Origin: Bacillota bacterium
Lineage (GTDB): Bacteria > Bacillota > SHA-98 > UBA4971
DNA: 64,000 nt
Assembly: GCA_012516125.1 (NCBI GenBank)
Contig: JAAYXB010000090.1
Coordinates: 62,001 to 126,000, forward strand
Direction of reading: 5' to 3'
Made by a program: the position numbers and the translations under genes. The notes under the pieces were generated by a model. That model ran no database searches. It had not been told where the DNA came from and saw nothing but the letters and a program-made list of their open reading frames with translations. This document shows, in pieces, positions 13,453-17,998 of the stretch. Numbering within the stretch: the stretch's first letter is position 1; every line of letters starts with the position of its first letter.

Positions 13453-13481
13453 ATTCTAACATGCACGCAAGACGTTGTAAA
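13453..13481 (-). promoter_or_regulatory. Promoter of the tig-clpP-clpX operon
   Basis: On the reverse strand TTTACA (13476-13481) and TAGAAT (13453-13458) are separated by exactly 17 bases, a good housekeeping promoter. The leader to the tig start would be about 245 bases. No CIRCE or CtsR repeat was recognised next to it. Confidence 0.7.
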
Positions 13482-13590: not shown

Positions 13591-16236
13591 TCATCTACGG
13601 TAATGCGACGGGGTGCGGACCCACCTGGCGATCTCTCTCGAGTCCTCTTCGCGCCAGGAGTCGCCGATCAGCTTGAAATAGCGGCTGGGGCACCTGCTTT
13701 TACCGTTGTGGCACGCGTGTCCCGTCAGGAAAAGCGCCCTCCTCGCCCGCGTCACCGCCACGTAGAAGACCCGGCGCTCCTCAGCCTCCCTGCCCTCCCG
13801 CATCGCAGGGTACAGGGGGAACTCGTTCTCCGACAGCCCCGCCACGAACACCACATCGAACTCCAGTCCTTTTGCTTGGTGCACCGTGAGCACCCGCACC
13901 CGCTCGTCATCCGGATCAAGGCGGTCCACGTTCCTCGCCAGGGCCACGAAACCGAGAATGGACTCAAGGGAGGACAGGGCGTCAATCTGGGGATCATCGC
14001 AGTCCTTGAAGACCCGGAGGACCTCCTCCAGATTCTCCATGCGCTGTGCATCTTTGCTGTAGTAGCCTCGCAGGGCCGACTTATCGAGGACCCGCTCCAG
14101 CAGGTCGGGCGGCCGGAGCCGTCCCAGGTCTTCGCGCAGCACGCGCACCTCCTCGGCCAGGGGGACGAACGCGGCCGCCGCGTCCCCCACTACGCGCGTC
14201 CTTTCGGCAGCCGTCGCGCTCACACGCGGAGCGAGGTGAGACAGGAGGCCGCAAGTTGCCTCGACATCGTCCATCGCCCGATGCGTGGGCCGTGCCGCCA
14301 GGTTGAACCTCCGCGCCAGCGCTTCGAGGGAGAAGTCGTCGCCGTCCAGGAACCGCCGGGCGATCTCAAGGGTGTCCACGCACTCGGGGACCGCCACCTG
14401 AACCCCGAGCCGCCGCCCGTAGGCAGTCATCATCCGCACGTCGAAGCTCACGTTGTGGCCGGCGAGCAGGCTGCCGGACGCAAACCGGACGAAGTCCTCC
14501 AGCACCCGTCGTGGCTCCTCGCCGTTCGTTTCGAGGAACGAGTCGCTTATCCCGTGGATCTTCTCGGACTCTCCCACGCTGACCGTGTTCCGCAGATAAC
14601 GATGGAGACGCCCGACGGGCCTCCCCCGCTCCAGCCGGACCGCCGCGAGCTCCACGATTTCGTCCATCCCCGGGTTGAGGCCGGTGGTCTCCGTGTCGAA
14701 GACCGTAACGGCGCCGTCCTTGAGAGCCTGCAGGAACGCGCCAAAGGGGTCCCCTGTCCTGAGCGTAGACGGCGCGACCATGTCCACGAGCCGCAGCCCC
14801 GCCGCCTCGGCCTCCAGAATTCGGGCGATGGTCCGGTCGCCTATCCCGCGCGGCGGCCTCTGAAGAATGCGGCGGAAACTCCGCCCGTCCGCCGGGCTGC
14901 ACAGAAACCGCAGGTATGCGATGGCGTCCTTGACCTCCTGCCGGCGGAAGAACTCATAGGTCTCCACAGTGAGGTGAGGGATACCTTCCTCCTTAAACAC
15001 CTCCGAGATGGTGACTCCGCGGGCGTTGGTACGGGTGAGCACGCCTATGCGGCCGTACGGGACGCAGCCCCCGGCCCCGCCCACCACGCCGCGCGCAATC
15101 TCGCGGACTTTCCGAGCGATCCACCGGGCTTCGGCCTCGCCGTCGCGTGCGAAGTGGACGGTCGCGGGGTCGCCGGCCTCCGCCGTCCGCGCAGGGCGCG
15201 GTGGAGTGCGCCTGCTATACGAAGTCGCTACACACCCCGCCACGGCAACCAGCGTGCGCGTGGCGCGGTGGTTCTCGACGAAGGAGAAGGCCCGGACTCC
15301 CTGGAAATCGGCGTGGAACTTGCCGAGGACCTTCGCAGGTGTGGACCCCCTCCACTCGTAGATGGTCTGGTCGAAATCGCCCGCGAGGACGAGGTTCTTG
15401 CAGCGCCGGGCCAGCGTCCGCACGATCTCGTACTCGGAGAGGTGCGTGTCCTGCATCTCGTCCACCTGGACCATGGAAAAGCGCTCCTCCCAGCGGCGAC
15501 GGATATCCGGCGCGAGCGCCAGCATTGCCCGGGTGAAGTAGATGAGATCGCCGAAGTCAAGGGCGTGATGCGACGCAAGCTCTCGCTGGTATGCGATGGC
15601 GAGCCTGCGGCTGGTAGAGGGGAGGTGCTCGAAAACCTTATCGCGTACCCTTCTCATCGAAAGCGCCGTGTCCGGCGCCTCGGCCTTGGCCCGCTCGATG
15701 ATGCTATAGAGATCGGACGCACCGTCGGAGTGGCCGCGCCATGCGAGCGCAGCCTGGGCGGGACCCAGCCTCCCGGCCGCGACGTCCTCGCCCCGTCTCT
15801 GGATGGACCTGAGGATCTCAGCGGAGTCCTCGTCATCGAAGATGGTGAAATCCGAAGGAAGCCCGATCTGCTTCGCTTCAACCCGGAGCATCCACGCGCA
15901 CAGCCCATGAAAGGTGCGGACCACGACCTTCCTCGCCAGGTCGCCGCAATGGACAGCAATGCGCTGCCGTAGCTCCTCCGCGGCGCGGTTCGTGAACGTC
16001 AGGCACAGGATGCGCGACGGCCCCACGCCGCGCCGGATCGCCTCGGCCGCCCGCTCCGCCAGCGCGAGGGTCTTGCCCGTCCCGACCGGCGCGTGGAGCA
16101 CCGCGCAGCCCTCCTGAAACTCAACGAACCTGCGCTGCTCATCGTCGAGCTCGATGTCCCCCGGCCCGCTGCGCCCTGCTGGCGCGGCCGCCGCATACTT
16201 CGCCAGACCCCTCCCAGGAGCCCCTCGACCCGCCAC
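13591..16236 (-). CDS. UvrD/Rep-type DNA helicase with an inserted DEDDh 3'-5' exonuclease domain
   Basis: An 881-residue protein. The N-terminal superfamily 1 helicase part has Walker A APVGTGKT near residues 48-55, LTFTNRAAEELRQR, and motif II VDEMQDTHLSEYE. From about residue 508 to 690 comes a DnaQ/PolC-like exonuclease: VFDTETTGLNPG (first D and E), GHNVSFDVRM (second D), and HRAMDDVEAT (H and last D). The helicase then resumes with VLTVHQAKGLEFDVVF near 782 and VAVTRARRAL near 828. All key residues of both activities are visible. GTG start at 16236 after GGAGGTG. A role in DNA repair or replication restart is likely but inferred. It lies alone between tig and the exporter. Confidence 0.88.
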   Translation of the reverse strand: MAGRGAPGRGLAKYAAAAPAGRSGPGDIELDDEQRRFVEFQEGCAVLHAPVGTGKTLALAERAAEAIRRGVGPSRILCLTFTNRAAEELRQRIAVHCGDLARKVVVRTFHGLCAWMLRVEAKQIGLPSDFTIFDDEDSAEILRSIQRRGEDVAAGRLGPAQAALAWRGHSDGASDLYSIIERAKAEAPDTALSMRRVRDKVFEHLPSTSRRLAIAYQRELASHHALDFGDLIYFTRAMLALAPDIRRRWEERFSMVQVDEMQDTHLSEYEIVRTLARRCKNLVLAGDFDQTIYEWRGSTPAKVLGKFHADFQGVRAFSFVENHRATRTLVAVAGCVATSYSRRTPPRPARTAEAGDPATVHFARDGEAEARWIARKVREIARGVVGGAGGCVPYGRIGVLTRTNARGVTISEVFKEEGIPHLTVETYEFFRRQEVKDAIAYLRFLCSPADGRSFRRILQRPPRGIGDRTIARILEAEAAGLRLVDMVAPSTLRTGDPFGAFLQALKDGAVTVFDTETTGLNPGMDEIVELAAVRLERGRPVGRLHRYLRNTVSVGESEKIHGISDSFLETNGEEPRRVLEDFVRFASGSLLAGHNVSFDVRMMTAYGRRLGVQVAVPECVDTLEIARRFLDGDDFSLEALARRFNLAARPTHRAMDDVEATCGLLSHLAPRVSATAAERTRVVGDAAAAFVPLAEEVRVLREDLGRLRPPDLLERVLDKSALRGYYSKDAQRMENLEEVLRVFKDCDDPQIDALSSLESILGFVALARNVDRLDPDDERVRVLTVHQAKGLEFDVVFVAGLSENEFPLYPAMREGREAEERRVFYVAVTRARRALFLTGHACHNGKSRCPSRYFKLIGDSWREEDSREIARWVRTPSHYRR

Positions 16237-17921: not shown

Positions 17922-17998
17922 TGGGGTGGATGATGGGATTCGAACCCACAGCCTCTGGAGCCACAGTCCAGCGCTCTCACCATTGAGCTACATCCACC
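17922..17998 (-). tRNA. tRNA-His (anticodon GTG)
   Basis: The reverse strand folds as a complete tRNA. The acceptor GTGGATG pairs with CATCCAC, the D-arm is GCTC/GAGC, the anticodon arm is CTGGA-CTGTGGC-TCCAG with anticodon GTG, and the T-arm is GTGGG-TTCGAAT-CCCAT. The extra 5' G (position -1) opposite discriminator C, the identity mark of histidine tRNAs, is present in the genome, and the 3' CCA is encoded. It is a lone tRNA with its own promoter. Confidence 0.96.

Follow-up and report, generated by a model that had tools for sequence, protein, structure and literature searches.

Why does a UvrD-like helicase carry a 3'-5' exonuclease in its interior, and what might the two activities do in one chain? 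The question is raised by a gene at 13591-16236 (minus strand) of the window, i.e., the whole 64,000-nucleotide stretch of Bacillota DNA analyzed here. The gene is a single open frame with a GTG start and encodes 881 amino acids. A first-pass annotation described its product as a helicase with a DEDDh exonuclease lodged between the helicase motifs at about residues 508-690, with both active sites apparently complete. The open frame, the Pfam matches and an AlphaFold2 (AF2) model agree on this composition over the whole gene, and sequence and predicted structure together indicate that the product is almost certainly a PcrA/UvrD-type SF1A helicase with a DEDDh (DnaQ-fold) exonuclease in its 2B subdomain.

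The helicase starts with the UvrD-helicase N-terminal part (1A/1B; residues 30-304, 15325-16149, minus strand like all features of the gene; Pfam PF00580, 4.7e-55). This part contains the Walker A motif APVGTGKT (residues 49-56, 16069-16092), whose GxGKT is invariant in all 24 family members spanning the site. A UvrD_C domain spans residues 318-838 (Pfam, 2.3e-80), and the RNase_T/exonuclease domain (PF00929, residues 512-664, 4.5e-26) is nested inside it, which bears out the internal position first proposed. Residues 318-498 (14743-15285) comprise the first part of 2A, beginning with UvrD_C, and the first part of 2B; they align with PcrA up to PcrA residue 433. The GIG motif of 2B (residues 464-466, 14839-14847) was located by alignment with PcrA, UvrD1 and the family; in UvrD-type helicases it provides a duplex contact or a 2B-2B interface (PMC13238157). 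The exonuclease fold begins approximately 30 residues past GIG and extends over approximately residues 499-674 (14215-14742) in an exonuclease-only AF2 model, so the extent first given was roughly right and the fold is slightly narrower. Behind it, residues 676-838 (13723-14211) hold the second part of 2B and the remainder of 2A, with motifs V (TVHQAKGLEF) and VI (FYVAVTRA), as seen in the UvrD_C match and the family alignment. When the family is aligned to PcrA, the motor motifs I, Ia and II-VI are all present in order, and the chain ends approximately 40 residues past motif VI.

The exonuclease motifs (FDTETTG, HNVSFD and HRAMDD) had been read correctly, and the models confirm the fold. The ExoI motif D514-x-E516 (14689-14697) and the ExoII motif H594-N-x3-D599 (14440-14457) are the same in all 23 sequences, as are H652 and D657 of the ExoIII motif H652-x4-D657 (14266-14283); all five DEDDh residues (D514, E516, D599, H652, D657) are thereby covered. 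The ATPase residues are conserved throughout the family, and both active sites appear complete from the alignments. In an alignment with PcrA (1pjr; phmmer), the match stops at residue 476 (PcrA 433) and restarts at residue 688 (PcrA 462). Because 28 PcrA residues (434-461) face 211 residues here (477-687), the exonuclease is an addition to a 2B that is otherwise retained. The suggestion that it replaces part of 2B is ruled out, since 2B is retained on both sides of the insertion, including GIG; that it sits in 2B is upheld. A chance or mis-framed fusion is ruled out by the single frame, the recurrence in many genomes and the purifying selection described below.

A full-length AF2 model built from a 26-row family alignment (mean pLDDT 87.5, pTM 0.86) has UvrD, PcrA and Rep as its best PDB matches by Foldseek (2is1/2is6, 1pjr/3pjr, 1uaa; E-values down to 4e-37). 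DNA-bound forms of these helicases give a TMt of approximately 0.8, and the apo open forms 1pjr/3lfu give 0.66; in the model, 2B is positioned as in DNA complexes. For the exonuclease-only model (pLDDT 96.0), the best solved match is the PolC exonuclease (TMq 0.86, rmsd 1.7), with further matches to DinG (0.81), epsilon (0.81) and also ExoX. A sequence profile search of the PDB with the exonuclease also puts the PolC exonuclease on top (3.4e-37).

Is the protein simply a modified PcrA? No NCBIfam model reaches its cut-off, and the nearest, the PcrA equivalog TIGR01073, gives 380.8 bits against a cut-off of 911.2, which argues that it is not a PcrA ortholog proper. With PcrA, UvrD and Rep it shares all motor motifs, the 1A-1B-2A-2B fold and the GIG element. 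Unlike them, the family has an exonuclease in 2B, a clade of its own and a short pin loop, and the C-terminal domain present in the PcrA rows of the alignment is missing throughout. In PcrA this C-terminal region carries the domain that contacts RNA polymerase. Between motif VI and PSRF, the loop that bears the pin in UvrD/PcrA is four residues shorter and has no LYG/LFG motif, and strand separation may be weak as a consequence. We do not take the shortened loop as a loss of unwinding, because the role of the pin in UvrD-type helicases is under revision (PMC13238157). The host genome separately encodes a housekeeping PcrA (contig C2), AddA and MutL, so the exonuclease-helicase is an additional enzyme.

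The protein is not a single oddity. It proves instead to belong to an old family, with more than 20 diverged genomes sharing the arrangement. A search of genome contigs finds relatives in Bacillota, in Planctomycetota and on one contig labelled Cyanobacteria. The same arrangement is carried by at least 21 of 300 Bacillota genomes, from nine families, a lower bound from scoring the best three candidates per genome. Within the host class it occurs in six of 17 genomes, and this patchy presence shows that the exonuclease-helicase is dispensable. Both halves are under purifying selection: against four relatives, dN/dS is 0.16-0.26 for the exonuclease segment and 0.09-0.22 for the helicase parts. 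The copy in genome G301 carries a TGA. In the host's genus, G088 encodes a distant exonuclease-helicase elsewhere in its genome (42% identity in the best segment). The contigs of G206 and G088 break off 336-458 nt upstream of tig, the neighbor of the gene in the host, and the gene that is absent there could have been lost in the contig gap.

A phylogeny of the domain order, proposed by the annotation as a check, recovers the arrangement as one clade. A helicase-only tree, built without the exonuclease, separates the family from PcrA as a single clade (99/99). In the exonuclease tree, which has few outgroups and long branches, the helicase exonucleases form their own clade (95/96) with the PolC rows outside. 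Since the helicases group together and away from PcrA even when stripped of their exonuclease, the simplest history would be a single old insertion, with later loss and some transfer. Searches of open papers found no account of a UvrD-type helicase whose 2B holds a DEDDh domain; the family is apparently undescribed, though perhaps published beyond open papers, and automatic Pfam architectures surely show the arrangement.

Does the genomic context point to a pathway? The gene lies 0.4 kb from tig and 0.4 kb from a gene for a LysE-type transporter. The first reading had noted the proximity of tig and drawn no pathway from it. Both points stand, and the tig neighborhood is merely local, other lineages having other contexts. 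The tig/clpP/clpX/lonB neighborhood is common to the genus, and lonB-type housekeeping genes are found in the window. A promoter-like site between the gene and tig (TTTACA-17-TAGAAT, 13453-13481, minus strand; 10 of 12 matches, with one site found against 0.5 expected) weakly suggests that tig has its own promoter. A tRNA-His gene (gtg; 17922-17997, minus strand) lies 1.7 kb upstream of the exonuclease-helicase gene. In four genomes of family f31 (L056-L059) the gene stands downstream of comEA-comEC in the same orientation, with a gap of 30 nt in L057, and in another lineage recR is nearby. In G082 (L062, 3227-16725) the exonuclease-helicase is clustered with three other UvrD-like helicases, one of them with a long N-terminal extension, and with a 1452 amino acid SF1 helicase that has a DUF559/MTES_1575 nuclease domain, possibly a DNA-processing or defence cluster. 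Across the compared neighborhoods there is no common operon partner.

The reading that we favor, tentatively, over RNA processing, relocated proofreading, defence and DNA uptake is that the protein works in repair as a translocase, trimming DNA 3' ends where single- and double-stranded DNA meet. The role in end processing, mismatch repair or stalled-fork repair first suggested for it is plausible. Family membership points to 3'-5' translocation and to 3'-5' exonuclease activity, and the closest relatives point to DNA as the substrate, with RNA as a possible one. At a junction of single- and double-stranded DNA, the motor would move 3'-5' along the single strand with 2B gripping the duplex, and the exonuclease would thereby come near the 3' end of the junction, be it a recessed primer end, a nick or a gap. 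On a partial duplex, PcrA keeps 2B anchored at the junction and draws the 5' tail into a loop (PMC4737156), so a 2B-borne exonuclease would sit beside the recessed 3' end, a geometry that we infer. There it could trim mismatched, damaged or frayed 3' ends, and the motor could strip or peel away DNA or protein. A 3' exonuclease at the leading edge could not simply digest the displaced strand, since it is the 5' end of that strand that a motor moving 3'-5' encounters. One chain would in this way combine E. coli UvrD with a separate DnaQ-type 3' exonuclease (ExoI/ExoX), in repair or 3'-end maintenance, and would likewise do the joint work of the MrfA/MrfB pair of Bacillus subtilis. In UvrD-type helicases, 2B on the duplex keeps monomers inactive and activation proceeds via 2B-2B dimers (PMC13238157).

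Could the exonuclease serve another end? It is unlikely that the motor acts on RNA-DNA hybrids, as in R-loop or RNA processing, while the exonuclease degrades RNA from its 3' end: the PcrA region that contacts RNA polymerase is missing from the family, the nearest sequences and folds are exonucleases of the DNA type, and where the neighborhoods show any pattern the genes lie near DNA genes (comEC, recR). Such a role would agree with the presence of the ribonucleases RNase T and Orn among DEDDh domains (PMC10889028) and with Listeria ExoDinG, an exoribonuclease that degrades unprocessed rRNA (PMC12774634). Relocated proofreading, in which the family supplies a 3' exonuclease to cells with an exonuclease-less PolC or no PolC and edits primer ends at or behind the fork, we consider rather unlikely. 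None of the 17 genomes of the host class has a PolC over the cut-off, and only DnaE-type polymerases are found in them. All nine PolC-bearing carriers tested (L157-L165) are without the PolC exonuclease, with 0-11 residues in its place against 168 in two non-carriers. In a published survey, 6% of all PolCs lacked the exonuclease, nearly all of them in Clostridia and Negativicutes, and 16% in the PolC+DnaE1 replication class, a finding termed surprising there (PMC3919608). Nine of nine far exceeds this background and is a lead, but the survey and our set are different samples, our genomes are related to one another, and the four non-carriers make too small a comparison group. Two of these four also have an exonuclease-less PolC, and the association between carriage and exonuclease loss is not significant (Fisher test by hand, 0.08, among related genomes). 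The helicase exonuclease scores highest against PolC exonucleases, yet falls outside them in the tree. The host encodes two RNase_T proteins, the exonuclease-helicase and a 395 amino acid protein with a DEDDh exonuclease and an EVE domain (L148, 532-1719; contig C98 of host genome G000), which lies beside an apparent integrase fragment. In G181, G124 and G301 the exonuclease-helicase has the sole RNase_T domain detected. This, like the PolC state of the carriers, also counts for the favored 3'-end trimming. In several genomes of the host class no RNase_T protein was detected, which suggests that DnaE PHP proofreading may suffice.

An accessory nuclease-helicase acting against phage or plasmid DNA, or serving mobile DNA, would suit the patchy distribution and the company of helicases in G082, and the best PADLOC match is RTasHel of DRT systems (1e-164). 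RTasHel also matches ordinary PcrA (1e-120), the neighbors in the window are genus-conserved housekeeping genes, and a defence function is improbable. Membership of a DRT system was rejected, the sole RVT_1 match of the genome being on contig C12 and the window on C80. Gabija (GajB) was rejected too: the neighbors are tig and the LysE-type transporter gene, with no adjacent GajA, and the exonuclease insertion is present. So was a plasmid or phage origin, as there is no plasmid match, phage matches are confined to the N-terminal half of the helicase, and none of 80 viral-contig helicases has the exonuclease. Action on incoming DNA together with the competence channel is suggested by the comEA-comEC neighborhood in f31, which two other f31 carriers and all other lineages do not share; glutamate dehydrogenase lies on the other side of the gene, the order may be incidental, and we regard DNA uptake as very improbable.

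Related ideas are already known from AddA/RecB, ExoDinG and the MrfA-MrfB pair. AddA/RecB likewise have an SF1A motor and a nuclease in a single chain; their nuclease is C-terminal, of the RecB type and of a different fold, whereas Pfam finds no C-terminal RecB-type nuclease domain in the exonuclease-helicase. The exonuclease shares the DEDDh fold with PolC and epsilon/DnaQ, its closest profile match, and in PolC it is also an insertion within another domain (PHP). Unlike here, its host in PolC is a polymerase, and the helicase exonucleases keep to their own clade. ExoDinG (PMC11981726) is a one-chain DEDDh exonuclease and helicase of Bacillota, but its helicase is of SF2 and its exonuclease is N-terminal and not nested; by Pfam, the SF1 UvrD domains and the internal exonuclease set our protein apart from it. 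In MrfA-MrfB of Bacillus subtilis (PMC10889028), a helicase and a DEDDh exonuclease also cooperate in DNA repair, but as two proteins, with a different kind of helicase and an exonuclease that has TPR repeats.

What does the family mean for these bacteria? It may answer a question raised by the 2013 survey (PMC3919608), namely why loss of the PolC exonuclease was possible in some Clostridia and Negativicutes. A more specific proposal, which we think fairly improbable, is that it is a relocated 3'-end editor of Bacillota with exonuclease-less PolC or DnaE alone, which would couple proofreading or primer-end repair to a motor able to reach stalled junctions and whose insertion would also replace or control the 2B-2B contact by which UvrD-type helicases are activated. 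By the PcrA alignment, R472 is the equivalent of Cys451 of UvrD1, the residue of the 2B-2B disulfide, and the exonuclease is close by. UvrD-type helicases have the 2B subdomain as their regulatory arm, and its control of unwinding is debated (PMC13238157). The family is real, uncharacterized and well suited to experiment, and with a catalytic domain within 2B it offers a direct test of 2B function.
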